DNA from: Fibrobacter sp. UWH6
GTDB lineage: Bacteria; Fibrobacterota; Fibrobacteria; Fibrobacterales; Fibrobacteraceae
DNA length: 64,000 nucleotides
Assembly (NCBI RefSeq): GCF_900142465.1
Contig: NZ_FRAX01000017.1
Location: 1-64,000 of the forward strand
Direction: 5' to 3'
Positions 17,265 to 28,873 of the stretch are shown in pieces. The first letter of the stretch is position 1. Each line of letters begins with the position of its first letter. The notes under the pieces were generated by a model. That model was given only the letters and a program-made list of their open reading frames with translations. It had not been told where the DNA came from and did no database searches. The position numbers were made by a program, and so were the translations under genes.

Positions 17265-17696
17265 TCACTTTTTCTTCGCATCGTACTTCGCAGACGTATC
17301 TACAAGATTCATCCCGAAATCAAAATATGACTCCGGAGTCACATCGAAAACGGCTGCCAACTTGGTAGCCATTTTTCGTGAAACTGTACGACGGCCACGT
17401 TCAATTTCAGAAAGATTCTGAACAGAGATTCCCAATTTTTCGGATAGAACTTTCTGAGTCCAGCCGCGAAGTTCACGGTCAGCCTTGACAGCATCGCCAG
17501 GAGACATTTTCTCGGCAATTCCCTTAAGCACTTCTGAATTATCCAGATCAATAAATTCATCATCATCGCTAACGTCCACAGAAGGGAAAAGGCTGCGCAT
17601 GATTCCAATGACGCAATCAGGAATGTTACCTTTAATCTGGAATACAACAGGTTCCTTAGTGCCGGGCATAGGGGGCGCTTTCACGACTGCCAACAT
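17265..17696 (-). CDS. XRE-family antitoxin of a RelE-type toxin-antitoxin pair
   Basis: 143 residues with the start at 17696, preceded by GAGGTG. The first 75 residues are an acidic N-terminal region. Residues about 78-135 are an XRE/HipB helix-turn-helix (RGWTQKVLSEKLGISVQN, LSEIERGRR). The gene overlaps the toxin gene by 41 bases in another frame, giving the toxin-first order seen in HigBA-like pairs. It would neutralise the toxin and repress the shared promoter at 17935-17963. Confidence 0.82.
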   Translation of the reverse strand: MLAVVKAPPMPGTKEPVVFQIKGNIPDCVIGIMRSLFPSVDVSDDDEFIDLDNSEVLKGIAEKMSPGDAVKADRELRGWTQKVLSEKLGISVQNLSEIERGRRTVSRKMATKLAAVFDVTPESYFDFGMNLVDTSAKYDAKKK

Positions 17697-17928
17697 AATA
17701 CACCTCAATGGTTAGCGTTCCGTTTTTACAAGTCCAACAGGCCACCCATTTACGAGATAAATGGCAGTGATACTTGTCGGGTCCAAGTTTTGAATAATTC
17801 ATAAGAGCCGGCTGCTCAGGGCCCTTCTCCTTGAGTAGTTGCTTCAAACGAATAAATTTATTTTGTTCGGCTACAGGCATTTTCTGAATACATTTTTCAA
17901 CCGAACGTTTGGCGATTACAACGTACAT
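17656..17928 (-). CDS. RelE/ParE-superfamily toxin
   Basis: 90 residues. The pattern VVIAKRSVEKCIQKMP, then KLGPDKYHCHLSRKWVACW, then LTIEVYYVGSRESAPY matches small RelE/HigB-like mRNA interferases, which cut mRNA on the ribosome. The C-terminal HxxR-like and Tyr positions are compatible but the exact catalytic residues are not assigned. First gene of a two-gene operon with the overlapping XRE antitoxin. The promoter is almost on top of the ATG. Confidence 0.8.
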   Translation of the reverse strand: MYVVIAKRSVEKCIQKMPVAEQNKFIRLKQLLKEKGPEQPALMNYSKLGPDKYHCHLSRKWVACWTCKNGTLTIEVYYVGSRESAPYARH

Positions 17929-18203: not shown

Positions 18204-18266
18204 AAACAGGCCTGTAACGAAGTTGTCCCACCATAGGGGAACCAACGATGTTACGGGCCTTTTTTA
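18202..18266 (+). ncRNA. Candidate 60-65 nt structured small RNA
   Basis: An 11-bp outer stem AGGCCTGTAAC (18208-18218) / GTTACGGGCCT (18250-18260) encloses an inner stem GTTG-tCCC / GGG-acCAAC. The outer stem runs straight into T6, a full intrinsic terminator. With the promoter at 18167-18195 this makes a self-contained transcription unit. Its last 16 bases are antisense to the end of the restriction gene R2, whose stop codon is inside the stem. It could instead be only a terminator for some other plus-strand transcript. Confidence 0.42.
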
Positions 18267-19516
18267 TTTGCGGTCGTAATCACATTCGCAAACTGCTTCT
18301 GTGCAGCATTGCTCTTGCTATAATTTTGCATCACATTTTTTATATCAAGCAGGACGCCGTGAATTTTGTGGTAAGGTTTTACAAGACCTTTTGCCACATC
18401 CGTATTTTTCCAATCACTATAGGCGTAGCCTAGATATTTCATTTTAAATGGGTACAAAAAATTCTCTGCAGTTACCGCACCCGCACAGTAAGGCATCAGA
18501 AAAACGTTATAAACCGTTTTGCCAATTTTTTGTTCAGCAAATTCAGCATAGGCAAGCTGCTTGGTGATGGATTCTGATTGCGGCAACGTTCTGCCATCAA
18601 TGCCGTAAGTATAATACTTGGAATCCAGAACAAAGATTTTGTCATCCACTTTCATGATGGTATCAGGACGCATTTCAACACGACCCGCATTTTTACCATC
18701 AATAACCCAGCCGCAATTTGGATAATAATCTTCTCGATGTTCTGTTCCGAAAATGCGCTCAATCATCGCTTCCCAAACAGGAGCAAAAGAATTTACCCCA
18801 AAATAAAATTCATCGGGAATCACATTTTCGTCAGACACGTTTTTTCCGAGGTATTCCACAATCCTCAGCATATCCTGGAAAATTGCAAGTGCGCGATCAT
18901 GGAATGTTTTGGAGGCTTTCGTCATCAAGACAGAAGAAAACATCTCGTAGTCAAAATCAAGGGCGGGAGGTTCCTGGATATCAACGCCAAAAACAAAACC
19001 GATTCTTTTTGCAGCATCCCACACGCAGAATTTATGGATAAGCGAAATCAGTTCACATTCATTATTGTCCGTTTGTCGTGTAACTGGATCAAGATAGACC
19101 ACACTATCATTAACAACATCCGGCCTCAAAGTTTTTATTGTTCGATTCCAATCAACTTTGCCGTTTCCACCCTGCTTAAAGACCACCTCCTGCTCGGAGT
19201 AATAGCCATACTCCATAAAATTCCGGAGTAGGTTGACATAAGCTAGCATAGGAAAATCTGAAGACGATTTTTCAACATCCCTTCCGATAATGTTTGAATT
19301 TTCGTGAACCTCGATCAGCTCCGAATCAGAAAGCACATCAAACAACTGCATAATATCCTGGCGAAGCTCATCTTCGTCAAGTTCTGCAATAGCGTCATCA
19401 TTCTTAAAGTATCCAGCAGGAAAACAAATTTCAAGACAACCGTCATTACGGATGCCGACAAATTCATCGCCACGCAATTTCGCTTCGCAAGTGCAGTAAT
19501 CGTTTAGCTTTTGCAT
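18251..19516 (-). CDS. LlaJI-family restriction endonuclease subunit (R2)
   Basis: 421 residues. In LlaJI, R2 is the nuclease subunit that works with a McrB-like GTPase, R1. The C-terminal region carries VEMRPDTIMKVDDKIFVLD then SKYYTYG, a PD-(D/E)xK-type D...DxK core as in LlaJI/McrC nucleases. I start at the ATG 19516, eight bases after the stop of the upstream ATPase gene. A longer frame would use a TTG and overlap that gene. With R1 and the methylase upstream on the same strand this completes a restriction system. Base composition is more AT-rich than the flanks. Confidence 0.78.
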   Translation of the reverse strand: MQKLNDYCTCEAKLRGDEFVGIRNDGCLEICFPAGYFKNDDAIAELDEDELRQDIMQLFDVLSDSELIEVHENSNIIGRDVEKSSSDFPMLAYVNLLRNFMEYGYYSEQEVVFKQGGNGKVDWNRTIKTLRPDVVNDSVVYLDPVTRQTDNNECELISLIHKFCVWDAAKRIGFVFGVDIQEPPALDFDYEMFSSVLMTKASKTFHDRALAIFQDMLRIVEYLGKNVSDENVIPDEFYFGVNSFAPVWEAMIERIFGTEHREDYYPNCGWVIDGKNAGRVEMRPDTIMKVDDKIFVLDSKYYTYGIDGRTLPQSESITKQLAYAEFAEQKIGKTVYNVFLMPYCAGAVTAENFLYPFKMKYLGYAYSDWKNTDVAKGLVKPYHKIHGVLLDIKNVMQNYSKSNAAQKQFANVITTANKKGP

Positions 19517-19524
19517 TTGTGATC

Positions 19525-20889
19525 TCACAAGCAGATTGCCATATAAGGCGGAATGCAAACAGTATCATCGTCCCGAATGGCAAAATTCTTCGGATGGATT
19601 ATATAAGAAGTCTTAATACGCTTTTTGAATTTCTTCTTAAACGATTCAAGCGATGTGGTGGTGTAATTTTTTGAAGACTTGACTTCGATTGGAATGATTC
19701 TTGAACCTACCGAATCAGATTCACTAATCATAAAATCAATTTCAATATCGTTGCGATGTTTTTCCTGATTGAAATGGGTATAAAAATAAAGCTTATGTCC
19801 TTGAGATACAAGCATCTGCGCAATGACATTTTCAAAGAGCATACCCTTATTAATCGCAAGCTTTTCGTTCATGATTTCCTTGTACAAGGATTCCTTTGAA
19901 ATCTGGTTTTCGCCAAAAGCCATAGAGAACAAAAGGCCTGTATCGCCCATATAGCACTTGACTGCGGAATCGTCCGCGTTCAAGCCAAAGCCAATATTTG
20001 GATCGGAGCACTTGAAACAGTTGTTTGCAATCATGGAATTGGAAAGCCACAGGAAGGTATTCTCATAGCTATTTTCACTACCGAGTCCCCCAGCGATCTT
20101 TGAAAATACAACTCGCTTTTCGTGCTTAGACAAAAATGCAGGAATCTGTTCAAATGTCGAAAGGACTTTCCCCTTATATGAGCCCTTGATTTTTTGAACA
20201 TCCTTTTTGTAGAGTTCAATAATCTTGCGCTTTGCCTTGTCGCTATAGTCAAAGCTGTAGGTGTTTTCAAGGAATGCGACAATGGATTGTGGCATGCCCC
20301 CTATCAGAATATACTGTTTGAATAGACGCATGCACTCCTTATGGAGTGGTTCATCCAACGCCTTCTTCCTTGAAAACGCATCGCGGATAAAGTCACATAT
20401 ATTCGGCTTATCCATCGCCCAGCAAAATTCCTCAAAATCCATGGGGAACATCTGGATGGATGTTTCTTCCGAGGGGATGGTAATATCCTTGACATTTTCG
20501 TAAATGGAAATAAGAGAGCCTGTTTCAATATAATCGAACCTGCCGTCTTTCACCAACTTTTTGATGGATTGCCTTGCCTTCGGAAATCTTTGCACCTCAT
20601 CAAAAATAATCAGGGATTCCCTCGGGTAGAGATTCACGCCATAAGTATATGAAAGGATATTGAAAAATGCCGAAAGATCATTCATTTTATCAAAGGCATC
20701 TAGTACAGCCTTTTCGCAGTCATTAAAATCAATCAGAATGTAGGAACGGTATTCGTTTTTCGCGAATTCTTCTACGATGGTACTTTTTCCAATACGACGC
20801 GCGCCCTCTATAAGAAGGGCTTCTCGACCTTTGGATTCTTCCTTCCAATTCAGAAGTTCTTGATAAATCTTGCGTCTAAAAGTAATCAT
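19525..20889 (-). CDS. AAA ATPase of the AAA_14/DUF4143 type, inserted in the restriction operon
   Basis: 454 residues. Walker A is GARRIGKST (about 29-37) and Walker B LIIFDEVQ. The C-terminal part (DUF4143 region) ends with a PD-(D/E)xK-like core: DIEIDFMI followed by IPIEVKSSKNY. The biochemical role of this common bacterial family is not established. It sits between R1 and R2, with its own promoter and three operator-like repeats upstream (20912-21018). This suggests an insertion into the operon or a regulated accessory subunit. The TTGCGT -35 box overlaps one repeat. Confidence 0.8.
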   Translation of the reverse strand: MITFRRKIYQELLNWKEESKGREALLIEGARRIGKSTIVEEFAKNEYRSYILIDFNDCEKAVLDAFDKMNDLSAFFNILSYTYGVNLYPRESLIIFDEVQRFPKARQSIKKLVKDGRFDYIETGSLISIYENVKDITIPSEETSIQMFPMDFEEFCWAMDKPNICDFIRDAFSRKKALDEPLHKECMRLFKQYILIGGMPQSIVAFLENTYSFDYSDKAKRKIIELYKKDVQKIKGSYKGKVLSTFEQIPAFLSKHEKRVVFSKIAGGLGSENSYENTFLWLSNSMIANNCFKCSDPNIGFGLNADDSAVKCYMGDTGLLFSMAFGENQISKESLYKEIMNEKLAINKGMLFENVIAQMLVSQGHKLYFYTHFNQEKHRNDIEIDFMISESDSVGSRIIPIEVKSSKNYTTTSLESFKKKFKKRIKTSYIIHPKNFAIRDDDTVCIPPYMAICL

Positions 20890-20911
20890 GAGATCAGTCC
20901 CGGATGCTCAT

Positions 20912-21018
20912 AATATACTTAATAAACATAAAAAACGCAAGGTATTCTACTGCTTATTAATGTTAAAAACGCAAAGTATTTTATATCGAAATAACGGCAA
21001 AAACGCAGAGTATTTCTA
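20912..21018 (-). promoter_or_regulatory. Promoter with three 34-nt-spaced direct repeats before the first DUF4143 ATPase
   Basis: Plus-strand repeats AAAAACGCAAGGTATTCTA, AAAAACGCAAAGTATTTTA and AAAAACGCAGAGTATTTCT start at 20931, 20965 and 20999, exactly 34 bases apart. Read on the minus strand, the copy nearest the gene supplies TTGCGT as a -35 box, then a 17-base spacer and TATATT (20912-20917). Protein bound to the repeats would compete with RNA polymerase. Confidence 0.7.
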
Positions 21019-21031
21019 ATTTTTGTAGCTA

Positions 21032-22882
21032 TCACGCCCCAAAACTCTTAAACACCCCAAATTTGAGTTCATGGAATTTTGAAATCAGGGTTTCTAGCGT
21101 ATCACAACCTTCGGCAAAAATCTGAGGGCGCTTGAACTTGAAAGCATCATCCCACAAATACTTCAGGACCTTTTCGGCAAAAATCTTTTCTGGAATTTCG
21201 CCATTCACGTTGCAAACAAACCAAACGCCAAGACGCTTGTCTTCGGTACTGGAAAGGCCCTTAAGCACCTGCGTAATCTTATTGTTGGCCCATTCCCAGA
21301 ATTCGCCCCAGGAAGTTTCTGTTCCAGCAATTTTTGCATCGTGCTGATTGCGGAAAGCTTCGGTTTTAAAACCGTCAACGCTACCTTTTGCAAATTCATT
21401 GCAGACCAGTTCCATATCAAAGCGACGCTGGAACGCATTATCCAAAGTGAATACATTCTGGTCGCTAGTATTCATGGTTGCAAAAATGGAAAGGTTGGGC
21501 GGCAAACGGATTGCCGTATTCTCGGTGAAATGAAGTTTTCCATTTTCACCAAAACCCAGCCAGTTAATGTCTATCGATTTATAGGCAGAAACTTCGCCCC
21601 TTCCGTCTTCTTCAGAAAATTCTACCGGAGTGTCACAACCGTCGTGAGATTCATTTGCAAAGCTCCTGATATCGCGAATGTAGTCGTTCAAATCTTCATG
21701 ATCAATGCCATATACACTCCAACTGGGACCGTAGCCAAACTCGTCCTTTTCATCATTAGGCTTTATGCGGTCACACAGCTGGAAAACTTCGCCAAGAATT
21801 GCCGAAGCTTTCCCGCGATTGATTTCATCAATGACCAAATAAAACTCTTGGTTCGGATTCAAGTAGGCACGGCGCAAAATTTTTGCAAAAGGGCCTGCCA
21901 CAAATTCATAAGTTACGGAATGGTTCCTTATCTTTGGACGAATCTGGCCAATGAATTCTGAATTTGTATAATCCGGATGGAAGACAACGCAGACCTTGTT
22001 AAAGTCAGGGACACTCTTCAACTTTTCCTTAATCGTATTGGACTTGCCACAGCCCGGAACACCATAGTAGATGATTTGGGAGGGGGTGAAAGAGGGATTG
22101 TTTTTTTTCGGAGAATCCTCTAATTCTAATGAACAATAATCAACATCATCTAAATCAACTTTTAAAACATTTGCATCACCAATACAACCTTCATGTGAAG
22201 CAAATTCAAATGCAGCAACTCCGTTGCGAATAAGGGTATGTAATGAAGTTTTTATATCACTTGATAAAAGGCTTGCCTTTTGAACAATTTTATTAATGCT
22301 CAAATTTTTCTTAGCGATAATATGTCCATATCTGAAACCAAAAATAGGATAACCCTTAACCTTATATCTGTCATGTATTTCTTTCAAACATTCAGCAAGT
22401 TTATCTAAAAGTTGTTCAACATTTAAACCTGCAGCAAACTCATTTTCATCAACTAAAGGGAAAACTAAACTTGATGTTTTCAATGCTTCGTTTAAATGTA
22501 ATTCTTGTTCTGCTTGACGCTTTTTATCAGAATCCTCTTCAATAATTTTTTTTATTTGAACAAGTAAATCTTTAAACTTCTTTTGACTATGTATTTGCAT
22601 CTTACTTTCATAATCTGCATAAGCATAAACATACTCGTAAGACTCGAATTCATTTCTCAACGTTAAATTTATTGCATCTGGAGAGTATTTGCACGTCCCA
22701 TTATATTTTGATACAAATCCCCTTTCTGCAAATTCGCGTGCAGTTCTTCCCGGATCTCCAACCCTTGAAATTCCTAGAATGTCACAAACTTCATTTGCTT
22801 CATCACGAATAAATTCGGGCGACAACTCTTCATTCTCAAATTTTCTAAAAATACTGGAAATGATATCTTTTACACTTGCCAT
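21032..22882 (-). CDS. McrB-like AAA+ GTPase, restriction subunit R1 (LlaJI type)
   Basis: 616 residues. The N-terminal 290 residues are likely the DNA-recognition and coiled part. The C-terminal motor has Walker A YGVPGCGKS, the McrB-typical FHPDYTNSEFIGQIRP, Walker B YLVIDEINRG, and the NTSDQ...LDNAFQRRF block. In LlaJI and McrBC this subunit hydrolyses GTP to move on DNA and activate the nuclease subunit. I start at 22882, one base after the methylase stop, because GGAGGG lies just upstream inside the methylase end. Confidence 0.85.
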   Translation of the reverse strand: MASVKDIISSIFRKFENEELSPEFIRDEANEVCDILGISRVGDPGRTAREFAERGFVSKYNGTCKYSPDAINLTLRNEFESYEYVYAYADYESKMQIHSQKKFKDLLVQIKKIIEEDSDKKRQAEQELHLNEALKTSSLVFPLVDENEFAAGLNVEQLLDKLAECLKEIHDRYKVKGYPIFGFRYGHIIAKKNLSINKIVQKASLLSSDIKTSLHTLIRNGVAAFEFASHEGCIGDANVLKVDLDDVDYCSLELEDSPKKNNPSFTPSQIIYYGVPGCGKSNTIKEKLKSVPDFNKVCVVFHPDYTNSEFIGQIRPKIRNHSVTYEFVAGPFAKILRRAYLNPNQEFYLVIDEINRGKASAILGEVFQLCDRIKPNDEKDEFGYGPSWSVYGIDHEDLNDYIRDIRSFANESHDGCDTPVEFSEEDGRGEVSAYKSIDINWLGFGENGKLHFTENTAIRLPPNLSIFATMNTSDQNVFTLDNAFQRRFDMELVCNEFAKGSVDGFKTEAFRNQHDAKIAGTETSWGEFWEWANNKITQVLKGLSSTEDKRLGVWFVCNVNGEIPEKIFAEKVLKYLWDDAFKFKRPQIFAEGCDTLETLISKFHELKFGVFKSFGA

Positions 22883-22883
22883 A

Positions 22884-24026
22884 TTAGCCCTCCAGTTTTT
22901 CTGCAATCTTTTTGGAAATAGCCTTCACAACAGGAACAGCAACAGAATTTCCAAACTGGTGGTACATTTGAGTCCTCGAAACAGGAATCTTGAATTCCTG
23001 TGGATACCCCATAATGGCTTTACACTCTTTTTCTGTAAGAAGACGAAGCCCTGTTTTTCCTCCTCTTACAAAGGTTCCTGTAATTCGCTGAATCTTATGA
23101 TACGACGCACAAAGGGTCTTTACAGGAAAGTCTGATGTTGCATCAATAATTTCTGGATGACCATCATCCTTTTTGTAGATGTACGACTTCTGCAAATGTT
23201 CTGAAATTGAAGGTCCTTCCGCATCAACCTCAACAAACTGACCAATACCGATTTTCTTATCGCAAGGTTTGGGAAATTCAAAATCAGTAATTTTCAAATC
23301 CTTTCTAAAACCAACAATGTAAAGGCGCTTTCGTTCTTGGGGGACCTTGTAATCAGCACTATTTAAAACCTTAATAAAGACCTCATAATTCAATTCCTTC
23401 TTTAAGGTTTCCATAATGATTTCAAGTGTTTTTCCGTCATTATGATTTACAAGTCCAGGAACATTTTCCAACAGGAATGCCTTGGGTTGTTTAACCTTCA
23501 CGATATTCGCGATATAGAAGAACAAAGTCCCCTGAGTCTTATGTTCAAACCCTTCGCGTTTTCCTATAGAGCTAAAAGGCTGACAAGGAAAGCCTCCTGT
23601 TAGCACATCAAAATCAGGAATTGTTTTAGGATCAACTTTCGTTATATCACCGAAAGGAACGTCTGCATAATTCACAGAATATGTTTGCTTCGCAGAAGAA
23701 TCCCATTCACTCGTAAAAACGCATTCTCCGCCGTTCTCTTGCATCGCAAGTCTAAAACCACCTATACCAGCAAACAAATCGATAAAAGAAAATTTTGGAT
23801 TTCTCTTTGGAGGATACTGCGCAAAATTTTTCAGATATTCAGCCTTACTTGGAAGCTTATTTAAATCAACTCCATTTTTTCTCAGAATAGACTCGTAGTG
23901 TAAAGCTTGAGGCGATCCCTGCAGAGACAGGTAATGGCTGATTACAGCTAAATCCTCATCAAAATGAACATCTCCCAAACATGTTCTTAATTGCTTTACA
24001 AGATCGCTATTTCCTACCGTAGCCAT
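22884..24026 (-). CDS. DNA (cytosine-5-)methyltransferase of the restriction system
   Basis: 380 residues. C5-methylase motifs in order: I FIDLFAGIGGFR, IV GGFPCQPFSSIG with the catalytic Cys, VI ENVPG, VIII QERKRLYIVG, and X QFGNSVAVPV. The N-terminal 75-residue extension before motif I is unusual and may bind a partner. It protects host DNA against R1/R2. LlaJI itself uses two C5-methylases for an asymmetric site. Only one is visible here, so the site may be palindromic or the second enzyme may lie elsewhere. First gene of the M-R1-ATPase-R2 run. Confidence 0.92.
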   Translation of the reverse strand: MATVGNSDLVKQLRTCLGDVHFDEDLAVISHYLSLQGSPQALHYESILRKNGVDLNKLPSKAEYLKNFAQYPPKRNPKFSFIDLFAGIGGFRLAMQENGGECVFTSEWDSSAKQTYSVNYADVPFGDITKVDPKTIPDFDVLTGGFPCQPFSSIGKREGFEHKTQGTLFFYIANIVKVKQPKAFLLENVPGLVNHNDGKTLEIIMETLKKELNYEVFIKVLNSADYKVPQERKRLYIVGFRKDLKITDFEFPKPCDKKIGIGQFVEVDAEGPSISEHLQKSYIYKKDDGHPEIIDATSDFPVKTLCASYHKIQRITGTFVRGGKTGLRLLTEKECKAIMGYPQEFKIPVSRTQMYHQFGNSVAVPVVKAISKKIAEKLEG

Positions 24027-24041
24027 CTACTCGCTCCAATC

Positions 24042-24069
24042 AAAAAGGGTTGAACCTGAGTTCAGCCCT
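24042..24069 (-). terminator. Hairpin with T5 just upstream of the methylase start
   Basis: On the minus strand AGGGCTGAAC / GTTCAACCCT (TCAG loop) is followed by T5, sixteen bases before the methylase ATG. It reads as an intrinsic terminator pointing toward the methylase gene, so it is either the end of an upstream transcript or an attenuator of the operon. Confidence 0.65.
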
Positions 24070-24143
24070 TCGTTCGGAGCGATGTTCCTAGCCTGATTTT
24101 ACGGCAGCACTTTCCAGCATTTGATGCGGCACCTGCACAAAAC

Positions 24144-24430
24144 AAAAAGGCGAGGAGCATTGCTGCTTCTCGCCGAAAGTTGCGACATTCTACAATTCAA
24201 AAACAAAACTCGCGGACGACTCCGGCGGCACACCATAGGCGCCAAGCCAGATTTCGCCATACGCCAAAACGCCTTGGCGCAATTGCACAAAAGCGAGGTC
24301 GAGACCACTGGGTACACGACCCCCAGGGTACAATGCGCCCATGGCACTCATGGGCATCCGAGATTTGTCCTGTTCCTTGTGCGAAAAGAGTGTCGAAGTT
24401 CCTAGCCGAGAACGAGAGCAAAACTCACAT
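24144..24430 (-). ncRNA. Structured minus-strand element C in the restriction operon leader
   Basis: Stems are GCCCATG/CATGGGC (24337-24355), CTGGG/CCCAG (24308-24326) and GCGCCAAG/CTTGGCGC (24238-24279). The 3' end is a strong terminator, GGCGAG...CTCGCC with an inner AGCA/TGCT stem and T5 (24144-24174). The 5' end shares CTAGRAACTTCGACA with elements A and B but lacks their closing helix. No clear promoter is seen. It may be a diverged relative or the 3' part of a longer leader. Confidence 0.4.
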
Positions 24431-24532
24431 TGCGAGAGTCATAGAAAAACTTGCTTACAAGGTTTATTCATGACCGAGCATCAAGAGTTTCTACAAAACT
24501 CACCGAGCGCCCTTATACGGCTCGGACCAAAC

Positions 24533-24762
24533 GAAAAAAGGCGCCAGACCGAACGCATTTATCAGCTAGAGGCCTTCGACAACCTGACACAAATAAATAC
24601 GACGATCCGCGCCCAATTGCACAATCTAGCGTACATTCATCCAGAATGCACACAACGCAAAACATGGCCGTCCGGTAAACCGGGCGGCAAGCACGTCGTT
24701 TCGTCTTACTCACCGTGTCTTGAAATGTCGAAGTTTCTAGCTGTGAATAAGAGAACTCTTAT
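24533..24762 (-). ncRNA. Structured RNA element, copy A
   Basis: Predicted minus-strand transcript of about 230 nt. The 5' strand CAGCTAGA-aa-CTTCGACA (24743-24726) is perfectly complementary to TGTCGAAG-gcc-TCTAGCTG (24581-24563). A 10-bp hairpin GCCGCCCGGT/ACCGGACGGC lies at 24667-24688. The 3' end is a terminator: GGCGC/GCGCC, inside it GTATTTAT/ATAAATGC and AGGTT/GGCCT, then T6 (24534-24539). The closing helix shares bases with the innermost terminator stem, so the two folds exclude each other unless they form a pseudoknot. A one-base indel relative to copy B in the conserved core rules out a conserved protein. Confidence 0.6.
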
Positions 24763-24769
24763 GGAGATG

Positions 24770-24799
24770 AATATAGAATAAAATCACTTTTATGGTCAA
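24770..24799 (-). promoter_or_regulatory. Promoter of RNA element A
   Basis: Minus strand TTGACC (24794-24799), 18 bases, TATATT (24770-24775). The same boxes at the same spacing precede copy B. Confidence 0.6.
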
Positions 24800-24862
24800 C
24801 CAAGGCCATATTTATTTGACCCGTTTTGACCCGTTTTGACCGTACGGGGGAACACCCAAGTT

Positions 24863-26173
24863 TCAAAGTCCTTCCGAGGCTATCCACTTCAAATAGAATT
24901 CCACCAGGTAGAGCGGCACGTTGACCATCTGCTCCTGCTCGCGGTAATCCGACATGGAAAATCGGATGCCCTTTAGCTGCGCGTTTGTTTTCAGCACCGT
25001 CGAAAGGGATTTCGCCTTGAGGTTTTCTTCAGCCTTGACTTCGGTGGGGTAAACGGCTCCATGCTGAAAGACAAAATCAATTTCCGAAGTTGAATTTTCG
25101 TTCGTGTAGTAATACAGGGGCTGTCTCATGGTCGCGATGTATTGCTGGGCGACATATTGCTCGGTAAACGCCCCCTTGTATTCCGTTATCATCTTGGACT
25201 CGGCCAGAATTTCCTTGGCGGGAATGTCTGACATGGCGCCGAGAAGCCCGAGATCGTTTACAAAGAGCTTGAAGCAGCCCATGTCTTCGTAAAACTTGAC
25301 GGGCATTTCGACCTTGTTGATTCGGCAAACCTTATGGACGAGCCCCGCGTTGATGAGCCACTGGACTGCGTTTTCGTACTCCTTCGCCCTGCCGCCCTTG
25401 CGGAGCGCACCCCATATAAATTTCTTGTTCTCTTTAGCCAGTTGGCTTGGGATCGAGTTCCATACGGCGGAAACTTTCGCAAGTTCGTTGGAGGGAATGT
25501 GCTTGGAGAAATCATCCCGATAATCGTCGAGAATCCGTTTCTGGATTTCACGGACTTCAAGGATGTTCTTGCGATCCACATAAGCGAGTACCGCCTCGGG
25601 CATTCCCCCCACATAATAATACTGTCTTAAAAGTTCTATCAATTTGGTCTTCAGGACGGCATATTCGTCGAACCTGAACGCGTTTAGGTGCATCAGCAGA
25701 TTTTTTTCGCCAAGGGCATCGAGAAATTCGCTAAATGATAGCGGGCTCAGCTTGAGCCTATCCACTTTTCCTACTGGGAATCCTGAGCCGGAATGGACCT
25801 GAAGCCCGAGCAGGGAACCTGCGACAACGACATGGTATTCGGGCGCATTCTCGCAAAAATACTTTAATGCAGTCAGTCCCTCTGGCTGCTGCTGGATTTC
25901 GTCAAAGATGATAAGCGTTTTGCCTGGTTCCACGACCAGTGAAGTAATGGCGGAAACAGCTCGCAAAATCCTGTCGATGTTGAAGTCCGCGAACAGGAAC
26001 CTAGAGGAATCGTCCGTATCGCAGTTTATGTAGGCGACATTCTCGAATTCGTTCTTTCCGAATTCCTTGAGCAGCCATGTTTTGCCGACCTGCCTTGCCC
26101 CCTCCAAAATGAGGGGTTTACGGTGCGCGCTATTTTTCCATTTCAGTAGATCTTCATAAAGAAAACGCTTCAT
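24863..26173 (-). CDS. AAA ATPase of the AAA_14/DUF4143 type (second copy in the window)
   Basis: 436 residues. Walker A is GARQVGKTW and Walker B LIIFDEIQQ. The C-terminal region has NSTSEIDFVFQHGAVYPTE followed by VKAEENLK, a possible PD-(D/E)xK core. It is a distinct subfamily from the ATPase at 19525, sharing only architecture. The gene lies between RNA elements B (upstream) and A (downstream) and has three direct repeats of 32-nt period directly before its ATG. Role unknown. The position beside the restriction operon suggests the same defence locus. Confidence 0.8.
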   Translation of the reverse strand: MKRFLYEDLLKWKNSAHRKPLILEGARQVGKTWLLKEFGKNEFENVAYINCDTDDSSRFLFADFNIDRILRAVSAITSLVVEPGKTLIIFDEIQQQPEGLTALKYFCENAPEYHVVVAGSLLGLQVHSGSGFPVGKVDRLKLSPLSFSEFLDALGEKNLLMHLNAFRFDEYAVLKTKLIELLRQYYYVGGMPEAVLAYVDRKNILEVREIQKRILDDYRDDFSKHIPSNELAKVSAVWNSIPSQLAKENKKFIWGALRKGGRAKEYENAVQWLINAGLVHKVCRINKVEMPVKFYEDMGCFKLFVNDLGLLGAMSDIPAKEILAESKMITEYKGAFTEQYVAQQYIATMRQPLYYYTNENSTSEIDFVFQHGAVYPTEVKAEENLKAKSLSTVLKTNAQLKGIRFSMSDYREQEQMVNVPLYLVEFYLKWIASEGL

Positions 26174-26184
26174 ACTCTATATAT

Positions 26185-26260
26185 ACATTTTTCTTGATGA
26201 ATTTCGAGCGATATTCACATTTTTCTAGGCGTAATTTAAACACTGCGTACATTTTTCTAG
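26185..26260 (-). promoter_or_regulatory. Three 32-nt-spaced direct repeats before the second DUF4143 ATPase
   Basis: ACATTTTTCTTG, ACATTTTTCTAG and ACATTTTTCTAG start at 26185, 26217 and 26249, exactly 32 bases apart. The nearest copy abuts a TATATA at 26179-26184, just upstream of the ATG. The arrangement mirrors the 34-nt triplet of the other ATPase with a different sequence. Confidence 0.65.
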
Positions 26261-26292
26261 ACGAAACAACAATTTCCCACAAAAAAGCCATA

Positions 26293-26535
26293 GAAAAAAG
26301 GCGCGGAATCGCAGGCATTTGTCAGCTAGAGGCCTTCGACAGCCCGACACAAACAAACACGAACGACCCGCGCCCCATATTCTGGTCACCCAGCAAATGC
26401 ACATTCAAGAAATTGAAGATGCATTACGCCAAGCGATGGCGCCAAGGTTAACCTGGCGGCAGACGCGTTCGTTTCGTCTTACTCACCGTGTCTTGAAATG
26501 TCGAAGTTTCTAGCTGTGAATAAGAGAAATGCTAA
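26293..26535 (-). ncRNA. Structured RNA element, copy B (leader of the second ATPase gene)
   Basis: Same plan as copy A. CAGCTAGA-aa-CTTCGACA (26516-26499) pairs with TGTCGAAG-gcc-TCTAGCTG (26341-26323). The variable middle has an ATGCA/TGCAT plus TTCAA/TTGAA hairpin (about 26396-26423) and a GCCAGGT/ACCTTGGC hairpin (26441-26457). The terminator is GGCGCGG/CCGCGCC enclosing GTGTTTGT/ACAAATGC and GGGCT/GGCCT, then T6. Relative to A, one inner pair changes A-U to G-C and others change to G-U, keeping the helices. The terminator ends about 120 bases before the ATPase ATG. Confidence 0.6.
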
Positions 26536-26542
26536 TGACTTG

Positions 26543-26572
26543 AATATAGAACAAAATTCACATTCAAGTCAA
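26543..26572 (-). promoter_or_regulatory. Promoter of RNA element B
   Basis: Minus strand TTGACT (26567-26572), 18 bases, TATATT (26543-26548), matching the promoter of copy A in boxes and spacing. Confidence 0.6.
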
Positions 26573-26611
26573 TAGATTCGTGTTTGTTTTACGGACTTTA
26601 AAGTAACTCAA

Positions 26612-27355
26612 CTACACTCTCTCGCCTTTCAGCAAGTCGCTTTTTTCCATGAAGTCCAGCAGCTGGTGCCTGGTCGGCAATTTGGGCTTATAGACAGAGG
26701 CGAAATCGCTCTTGGCGACACTGGTGGCAAACTCCACCATTTTGGGCCCGCGGCTTGTAGTGAGCAGGATTCCCACGGGAGGGTTGTCGCCAGGCTGCAT
26801 GACCTTGTCCCGGTAATGCCTGACACAGGTTCCCAGCTGATCTAAATCGGTCTTCCGGAATTTGCCATCCTTCAGGTTCACCAGCACATGGCAATGGAGC
26901 ATACGGTTATAGAATACCCAGTCCACACTCAGGTCGGTGCCGTTCACGGGAAGCTGCCTTGCCCTGGCCTCCAGGCAAAAGCCCAGACCAAGTGAAAGAA
27001 AGAAATTCACCATGCGGTCCTGAGACTCGTAAGGCGCCACACTGTAGGACGCCCGCCTTTCGGCAGCGAAACTGCCCATGAGAAATTCCGCAGACGACTG
27101 CGCCCCCTCGGACACCATAAGGGAGCGCTGCACCGACGCAACCTGAAGTTCCACCAGCCTTTGCTGCAACCCCTTGCGCTCGGCAATCTGGGCAGAAAGC
27201 TCCGGCAGCTCCGCCTCCTTGACATAGCGGTTCCTGACCTTATCGCCCTCGCGCCACTGCAGGTAATAACGGTCCTTGCCCTGGATGACCTTCTTGGTGA
27301 TGGAACCCTTGGGCAAGAGTGCAATCCGACTTTCTATACTTTCCATTTCATTCAT
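26612..27355 (-). CDS. YhcG/DUF1016-like PD-(D/E)xK nuclease protein
   Basis: 247 residues. The N-terminal 60 residues (KGSITKKVIQGKDRYYLQW, then REGDKVRNRYV) resemble the short DUF6788-like region. From about residue 120 the protein matches the YhcG C-terminal nuclease: GTDLSVDWVFYNRMLHCHV, LVNLKDGKFRKTDLDQLG and PPVGILLTTSRG. The catalytic D...(D)LK core reads D...NLK, so one acidic residue may be replaced. Much of the usual YhcG N-terminal domain is missing, so this is a short fusion form. The start is 27355 or the ATG three codons on. It sits at the right edge of the defence island. Confidence 0.7.
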   Translation of the reverse strand: MNEMESIESRIALLPKGSITKKVIQGKDRYYLQWREGDKVRNRYVKEAELPELSAQIAERKGLQQRLVELQVASVQRSLMVSEGAQSSAEFLMGSFAAERRASYSVAPYESQDRMVNFFLSLGLGFCLEARARQLPVNGTDLSVDWVFYNRMLHCHVLVNLKDGKFRKTDLDQLGTCVRHYRDKVMQPGDNPPVGILLTTSRGPKMVEFATSVAKSDFASVYKPKLPTRHQLLDFMEKSDLLKGERV

Positions 27356-27362
27356 ATACTAC

Positions 27363-27406
27363 AATATAAACTACGTAAACTACATTGTCAAGATGTGTAG
27401 TTTATA
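27363..27406 (-). promoter_or_regulatory. Consensus promoter with overlapping operator repeats, probably leaderless
   Basis: Minus strand TTGACA (27386-27391), 17 bases, TATATT (27363-27368). The start would fall on or next to the ATG at 27355. GTAGTTTA occurs twice in tandem across the spacer and -10, and TATAAACTAC (27365-27374) has an exact inverted partner at 27397-27406, framing the -35 box. Confidence 0.65.
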
Positions 27407-27428
27407 CTGATGCATAATCACAACAAAC

Positions 27429-27454
27429 AGAAAAGCCCCGCTTACCTGCGGGGC
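27429..27454 (-). terminator. Terminator of the SGNH esterase gene
   Basis: 7-bp stem GCCCCGC / GCGGGGC with a six-base loop and a T-rich tail on both strands, so it probably works in both directions. Confidence 0.75.
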
Positions 27455-27502
27455 ATCCCATTTTTTTATAAAATGTGCAGGATTTAAATACGCAAATTTT
27501 TA

Positions 27503-28873
27503 TTACCTAACCGTAACCTTGGCGCTGTAGGAAAGTTTCTTACCGCGGATTATGACAAAGTAATTTCCTGTAGGAAGATTGCGATTTACAACCATATGTC
27601 CCATGGCATCCATGATTACCACCTGGGCAGATTCCTGGACGCCCGACACAGAGACGGTCCTTCCGACGACACTTACCTGCGGCACCTTGAAGTTCACCTT
27701 GGACGAAACGATTCCCTCTTTATCGTCCTTTTCCTGGTTAGCGTTCTCGTTGTCTGCGTCCCCAAATCCATTTTCGTACAAAGTCGCAACGGCTTCAGCC
27801 CACAGACGGTGCATGCTCTGCGCACCCTTTTCGGCGGGATGCACGCCATCGCTGGCAGAGAGTTCTTCGGGGTGCTTGGAGAAGTAATCGTAAAAATCCG
27901 GGCCCTTAGGCAGGTTGTTTGTTTCGGTCAGCTCGTCGATGGCATCGAGGTAACCCTGGTACACTTGCCACTCGGCGATGTCGGGATTGGTGGCGATCAT
28001 GCGGGCGATAATGGGCGTTACCCCGTGAGCTTTCGCCGTGTCAATGATTTCCTGCATGTTGGTCTTGAAGGTCTGAACGTTCCAGCCAGTTTTATCGCCC
28101 CAGGCGTCGTTGGTTCCCATTTCGATGGCCCAGAACTTGACATTGCCGGCATACTCGCCATAATACTTGAGGCCTTCGACCACGCCCGTGGTGTTCACGC
28201 AACCGATGCCGCCGCGGAGCATTGCAGGGTAGTAATCGGGATAGCGGGCGTGAATCAACTGAGAAAAGTTGGAGTCCACTTCTGTCTGCTTCAGGCCCAT
28301 CTGGCTGATGCTGGTGCCCATAAAGAACCAGGTGTCGTTTCCGCCATCGCTCAAGTCGTAGGCGCCAATTTCTTCCAGGTTCTTGACGGCTTCGTCGGCC
28401 ACGATCTTGAACCAGGACTTGCCTGCAAAATCTACCGCGATGCCGCGGCTCATGGCGCCACTTTCGCCAACCTGGGCCACAACTTCCCAGTCACCGTCAA
28501 CACCGTCGGTGGAATTTCCGGAGGTCAGAATCTTGAAGTTCTGCAGGCTGGATCCTTCCGTAGGAAAGTGCTGGCAGCTCGCCGCATGAACATATTCGTC
28601 GCCTACCCAGGCTTCATCGCCGCGAGTCTCCCAGGTAATAAAAATTCTGGACGGCCCCTCCCCCACATTCAGGGCCAGTTCCTTCGCCGAGGCCACCTGA
28701 TTAAAATCCAGATGACCATCAGTATAGACATCAGGTTTCCAGTTGGAATTGAGGGCACCATCTACATAAAGATTCTTGCCGATGCTCAAATTGACATTGG
28801 CCTTAATGGCAGATGCACTTACCGAAAGACCCAAAACACACGCCGCAACGGCGCCAACACCAAACATTTTCAT
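27503..28873 (-). CDS. Secreted SGNH/GDSL esterase with C-terminal sorting-like domain
   Basis: 456 residues from the ATG at 28873, chosen for GGAGTG upstream and the signal peptide MKMFGVGAVAACVLGLSVSA. Residues about 25-205 form a beta-rich, carbohydrate-binding-like domain. The SGNH hydrolase follows: block I FFMGTSISQMG (GTS in place of GDS), block III EMGTNDAW and block V SDGVHPAEKG. It is probably a carbohydrate esterase removing acetyl groups from plant polysaccharide. The last 70 residues (VIMDAMGHMVVNRNLPTGN region) resemble the beta-sandwich tail with a GxY/GNYF motif found on many Fibrobacter and Bacteroidota secreted enzymes. It lies next to the GH45 gene at 29060. Confidence 0.82.
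   Translation of the reverse strand: MKMFGVGAVAACVLGLSVSASAIKANVNLSIGKNLYVDGALNSNWKPDVYTDGHLDFNQVASAKELALNVGEGPSRIFITWETRGDEAWVGDEYVHAASCQHFPTEGSSLQNFKILTSGNSTDGVDGDWEVVAQVGESGAMSRGIAVDFAGKSWFKIVADEAVKNLEEIGAYDLSDGGNDTWFFMGTSISQMGLKQTEVDSNFSQLIHARYPDYYPAMLRGGIGCVNTTGVVEGLKYYGEYAGNVKFWAIEMGTNDAWGDKTGWNVQTFKTNMQEIIDTAKAHGVTPIIARMIATNPDIAEWQVYQGYLDAIDELTETNNLPKGPDFYDYFSKHPEELSASDGVHPAEKGAQSMHRLWAEAVATLYENGFGDADNENANQEKDDKEGIVSSKVNFKVPQVSVVGRTVSVSGVQESAQVVIMDAMGHMVVNRNLPTGNYFVIIRGKKLSYSAKVTVR

Follow-up and report, generated by a model that had tools for sequence, protein, structure and literature searches.

A phased direct-repeat array at the promoter of a PDC-S01 ATPase gene is a candidate protein-specific operator

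MalT binds direct repeats. The MalT/STAND activators and IniR (PMC5760070) resemble the system predicted here in that an ATPase with a DNA-binding domain acts at a promoter; the ATPase domain of IniR resembles SSO1545, as does the AF2 model obtained here. These proteins, however, activate other operons and carry a separate sensor domain, whereas the sites found here are confined to the gene that encodes the ATPase, and the protein ends in a nuclease-like domain. By analogy, the logic closest to that of the present array is that of RptR, which represses an E. coli defence island via three direct repeats (PMC12255303). In both cases the -10 region of a defence promoter is overlapped by three direct repeats, and both share autorepression, which is a prediction here. 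RptR itself is small, dimeric and dedicated to regulation, and its repeats measure 9 bp with a 6-bp palindromic core, whereas the candidate binder here is the ATPase-nuclease effector itself, the units are longer and lie three turns apart, and both sequence and period vary by protein subfamily. Orc1/Cdc6 with its origin boxes and plasmid Rep with its iterons likewise combine direct repeats close to a gene with the protein that this gene encodes, of AAA+-winged-helix type for Orc1 and of winged-helix type for Rep; the arrays described below differ in having no replication context, in that one chromosome holds several of them, and in their promoter register. Autoregulated toxin-antitoxin operons offer a further parallel, namely a defence-related gene controlling its own promoter (again predicted here), but our locus is a single-gene unit without an antitoxin partner.

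The protein in question belongs to PDC-S01, a PADLOC class of single-gene defence candidates. In the sections of PMC12988326 that treat it, PDC-S01 is ranked fourth by frequency among prokaryotic defence systems and described as an ATPase-PD-(D/E)xK fusion class whose anti-phage activity is unvalidated, validation being pending for most such candidates; the corresponding section of PMC13356809 reports that no other single defence locus is as frequent in rumen genomes. By PADLOC, these are the same proteins as those analysed here. The sections concerned of both papers cover prevalence, evolution and the ATPase-PD-(D/E)xK fusion and do not mention promoter arrays or regulation. We found no published description of a promoter array upstream of PDC-S01 genes, and the DUF4143 and COG1373 literature yielded no more than single mentions per paper.

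In the window, the whole 64,000-nt stretch of Fibrobacter sp. UWH6 DNA that was analysed, re-reading of the sequence confirmed copies of ACATTTTTCT(T/A)G at 26185, 26217 and 26249 (+ strand, period 32/32). Their position before a start codon, as proposed by the sequence-only reading, was borne out: they closely precede the ATG of gene 24863-26173 on the minus strand. Along this gene the array reads 3 x CWAGAAAAATGT; its unit in gene direction is TCRYCWAGAAAAATGT, and the last copy abuts TATATA. The features of the locus are the following.

24863-26173, minus strand: AAA_14-DUF4143 ATPase, 436 aa, PDC-S01, main subfamily A (period 32/33), by Pfam, PADLOC and AF2
26178-26183, minus strand: putative -10 element TATATA, a consensus match in register with the array
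26184-26200, minus strand: repeat unit 3, promoter-proximal, TCATCAAGAAAAATGTA, abutting the -10-like TATATA
26216-26232, minus strand: repeat unit 2, ACGCCTAGAAAAATGTG, by sequence match
26248-26264, minus strand: repeat unit 1, distal, TCGTCTAGAAAAATGTA, by sequence match; DNA homology to the relative L023 stops inside it

The TATATA ends ~5 nt before the ATG of 24863-26173, and the mRNA putatively has a short leader or is leaderless. The three repeats are not a product of chance. A control scan of 464 kb (400 kb of the genome plus the 64-kb window) returned the array at 26185 as the sole intergenic three-copy array of 32/33-nt period; two further three-copy arrays of period 33 look like in-frame coding repeats. 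With up to 2 mismatches allowed, the 17-nt unit has 3 matches at the locus and 10 elsewhere in the 3.9-Mb genome, against 8 for a reversed-pattern control, and the four lone genomic matches lack neighbouring copies. A structured RNA at the array was rejected, window positions 20000-28000 giving no Rfam match, and an integron cassette was rejected because the best score for integrase TIGR02249 in the genome was 78 bits against a cut-off of 265.

A second array, previously placed at 20931, precedes another ATPase gene in the window.

19525-20889, minus strand: AAA_14-DUF4143 ATPase, 454 aa, subfamily B (period 33/34), by Pfam, PADLOC and subfamily comparison
20934-20946, minus strand: repeat unit of the second array, by sequence match
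20968-20980, minus strand: the adjacent unit, offset by 34 nt
21002-21014, minus strand: a further unit, offset by another 34 nt

Both arrays thus share copy number and layout, with three copies before an ATPase gene, as had been claimed. The strict period said to be common to them proved wrong: it is 32/32 for the first and 34/34 for the second, with copies at 20934, 20968 and 21002. The second ATPase gene is embedded between LlaJI-type restriction genes; this PDC-S01 gene with its own array sits inside a LlaJI-type set at window positions 18251-24026 that consists of a LlaJI endonuclease, a McrB-like AAA_5 protein and a C5 methylase.

PADLOC assigned both ATPases to PDC-S01 by whole-protein profile match (E 1.4e-172 for 24863-26173 and 1.3e-100 for the other). 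An alignment of 28 homologs revealed invariant Walker A (G25xRQxGK31) and Walker B (D91E92) residues, together with the invariant nuclease-like residues E338, E364, E378 and K380. The AF2 model of the 24863-26173 protein (pLDDT 89.5) shows an AAA domain followed by a winged-helix-like segment and then a PD-(D/E)xK-like domain; the last two map to the gene as follows.

25259-25492, minus strand: predicted winged-helix part, residues ~228-305, a candidate DNA-binding region judged from AF2 helix/strand order and from Foldseek matches to ATPase-winged-helix proteins
24956-25177, minus strand: predicted PD-(D/E)xK-like nuclease part, residues ~333-406, judged from invariant columns, fold order and the class given in PMC12988326

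The best solved Foldseek matches were the archaeal ATPases 2qen and 2fna, followed by Orc1/Cdc6 on DNA, a MalT-system structure and Avs proteins. A sequence search for solved relatives gave just one marginal, probably spurious prefoldin match, and NCBIfam assigned no family. Column mutual information and segment-wise Mantel tests placed no specificity determinants in the winged helix or elsewhere in the protein.

Within the bacterial part of a family that also has numerous archaeal members, we surveyed 46 non-redundant Fibrobacteraceae homologs and 70 genes from named genomes outside Fibrobacter; an upstream 14-nt window was scored when it matched at ≥12 of 14 positions, with all lags between 10 and 100 allowed. 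Of the 46 Fibrobacteraceae homologs, 26 have direct repeats at lag 32 or 33 (10 at 32, 16 at 33; 0.3 genes over the whole lag range 29-35 in dinucleotide shuffles), with echoes at lags 64-66 and 96/99. Outside Fibrobacter, where MAG-derived phylum labels may include contamination and isolates and plasmids are independent of those labels, lag 32/33 was seen in 59 of 70 genes (22 at lag 32, 47 at lag 33; shuffles 0.85), none of the 70 scoring at lag 31 or 34. Fourteen held-out plasmid genes with annotated starts, fetched after the survey from Bacteroidota, Bacillota, Gammaproteobacteria, Fusobacteriota, Actinomycetota and Chlamydiota, gave 11 at lag 32/33 (shuffles 0.1). Control genes of this genome matched at lag 32/33 in 3 of 302 cases, one being the window gene 24863-26173 itself, and genes neighbouring the homologs in 4 of 164; two of these four are previously unrecognised AAA_14-DUF4143 genes, one from a distant subfamily, and a third match seems to reflect the ATPase's own array, across which it was read. 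No array reached the scoring threshold in ~16% (other phyla) to 43% (Fibrobacteraceae) of genes. Among Fibrobacteraceae relatives, L026, L027-L032, L036 and L037 carry one stop codon within the matched stretch.

Spacing across homologs is not random: when the lag was left free (20-59), 86 of 92 strong-repeat genes chose 32 or 33. The strict number of three copies was not upheld, arrays holding 2 (30 genes), 3 (41), 4 (10) or 5 (5) copies. The idea of a family-wide layout survives for the main subfamily, in which the array is widespread, and fails as regards a single period, which is subfamily-specific: 32/33 in A, 33/34 in B (the 19525 type), and 23 or palindromes in C (the short GPRQSGKT type). 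The upstream regions L269-L298, which precede short (~385 aa) DUF4143 proteins, contain palindromes or three copies 23 nt apart. One short contig holds two AAA_14-DUF4143 genes (L182, 2501-3805, and its neighbour), each with a different array of its own.

Alignment of the units of 114 genes yielded a consensus of ~22 nt, about nAAAATTC[CG]nYnnRAAAA[AG]TGT, in which the 3' half is constant and the core varies. Promoter elements were taken as consensus matches, and Firmicutes had too few genes for a register test. In Fibrobacteraceae, TATATW begins at offset -1/0 from a unit end in 14 of 24 genes (p 3e-12); in Bacteroidota, TAnnTTTG does so in 13 of 26 (p 3e-10), with seven more one period downstream. 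One unit ends exactly at the -10 element in about half of the genes in which such an element was matched, and with this element locked to a unit end, array and promoter look like one structure, the repeats putatively overlapping the gene's own promoter. Some arrays run beyond the promoter towards the ATG (L125, L131, L151), and others end one period above it.

From these sequence data, we consider it probable that the repeats are an operator array of the ATPase that follows them, which would bind its own promoter and most likely repress it. Repression is favoured because polymerase would be blocked by a unit that reaches up to the -10 element. Were the ATPase instead to bind the array as an activator, or as a switch that matches expression to need, the upstream units would have their centres near -56 and -89, where activators can act, and arrays ending one period above the promoter would fit; the exact abutment on the -10 element in half of the genes is the usual place of a repressor, and arrays continuing past the promoter also speak against activation, which we judge distinctly unlikely.

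The array behaves as part of the gene. In comparison with L023, a 93% relative from another genus, the units are 42/51 identical, whereas the spacers are 23/59 identical (p 3e-6). DNA homology to L023 spans 24861-26258, exactly gene plus array, and its stop at 26258 falls inside distal unit 1, at the outer array edge; other near-identical copies have the gene and ~118 nt in common. That gene and array act as a unit common to different genera would also suit a target of the protein's nuclease, at which a mobile selfish gene would home, integrate or recognise itself and whose overlap with the promoter would be incidental, as would the nuclease-like domain and the duplicated hairpin element flanking gene and array in the window. 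A cut site, however, needs no two to five phased copies, and the exact register with the -10 element also speaks against this explanation, which we regard as very improbable.

The proposed check of whether repeat sequence varies with protein subfamily gave a positive result: repeats grow more alike as protein identity rises (Mantel rho 0.285 versus a null maximum of 0.169). Across phyla, repeat similarity is correlated with protein identity (r 0.195, p 0.008), and for the window gene against non-Fibrobacter homologs rho is 0.46 (p 3e-5). The window repeat is most similar to repeats from Treponema, another Spirochaetales, Bacteroidales and Catonella, the genes of which are also among those encoding the nearest proteins of the window ATPase. 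Such a change of the repeat with the protein suggests recognition of each gene by its own product, which probably shuts it off. Since gene and promoter move together, covariation alone is not proof of recognition; the cross-phylum signal, though significant, is modest and owes part of its size to the shared descent of gene and promoter.

No excess of trans sites was detected elsewhere in this genome or in a Catonella genome. With repeats only at the own promoter in these two genomes, the earlier proposal of an autoregulatory or target-site system is supported in its first half, autoregulation, and its second, a trans target-site system, is disfavoured. Annotated neighbours of the plasmid homologs share no partner regulator; they differ from record to record, which argues against a conserved one. 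This bears on the view that the sites serve an unlinked host regulator of defence genes rather than the ATPase, for which the three RptR-bound direct repeats over a defence-island promoter (PMC12255303) are a precedent. Every paralog, however, has its own repeat sequence, no conserved partner gene adjoins, the repeat follows the ATPase across phyla and the period follows its subfamily, so that we give this view very little credence. Least credible is an iteron- or origin-like site for replication or segregation with the ATPase as an initiator-like AAA+ protein (Orc1/Cdc6, RepA style): iterons are direct repeats at helical spacing and the AAA+-winged-helix fold resembles Orc1/Cdc6, but this genome has 13 DUF4143 genes, several with different arrays, most surveyed genes are not plasmid-borne, the array is in register with a promoter and the protein has a nuclease-like domain.

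The ATPase thus appears to be the most economical binder of the array, given the retention of units with loss of spacers, the subfamily-specific period and the missing conserved partner gene. In the self-regulation that we favour, each PDC-S01 protein (AAA_14-winged helix-DUF4143 nuclease-like) would recognise a subfamily-specific unit of ~17-22 bp, presumably through its winged helix. Several molecules would occupy neighbouring units on the same helix face, 32 or 33 bp being about three turns, and may bind cooperatively via ATPase oligomers. The bound molecules would cover the promoter, with the promoter-proximal unit extending over roughly -34 to -13, and most likely turn down transcription of their own gene, a repression that might be relieved through ATP state or phage DNA, for example. 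A further, rather unlikely elaboration is that the array, beyond its role as an operator, is a DNA scaffold: ATPase molecules would assemble along it at a fixed pitch of one unit per 32-33 bp and be kept inactive there. The nuclease would then be released, and its expression raised, when ATP is lost, invader DNA competes or the array is damaged, promoter occupancy serving as an infection sensor with an orthogonal address for each subfamily.

As a conserved, protein-specific candidate operator, the array is a first handle on the regulation and DNA recognition of PDC-S01. It supplies a defined DNA ligand for each protein and a ready binding or reporter assay, and allows members to be found and classified from promoter DNA alone. 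The at least 100 natural protein-site pairs at fixed period would also be well suited to working out how the ATPase family reads DNA.

The window contains several other elements. Two 77%-identical copies of ~250-270 nt each (24533-24784 and 26293-26557) flank the ATPase gene with its array and fold strongly into a long imperfect hairpin (DNA fold z -4.1); a degenerate third piece is found at 24391-24421. At window positions 26612-27355, a YhcG-type PDDEXK nuclease (PADLOC PDC-S02) adjoins the PDC-S01 gene, placing two defence candidates side by side. A small gene pair at 17265-17928, encoding 90 aa and 147 aa with a helix-turn-helix look, bears, as judged by translation, a likeness to HigBA-type toxin-antitoxin systems.
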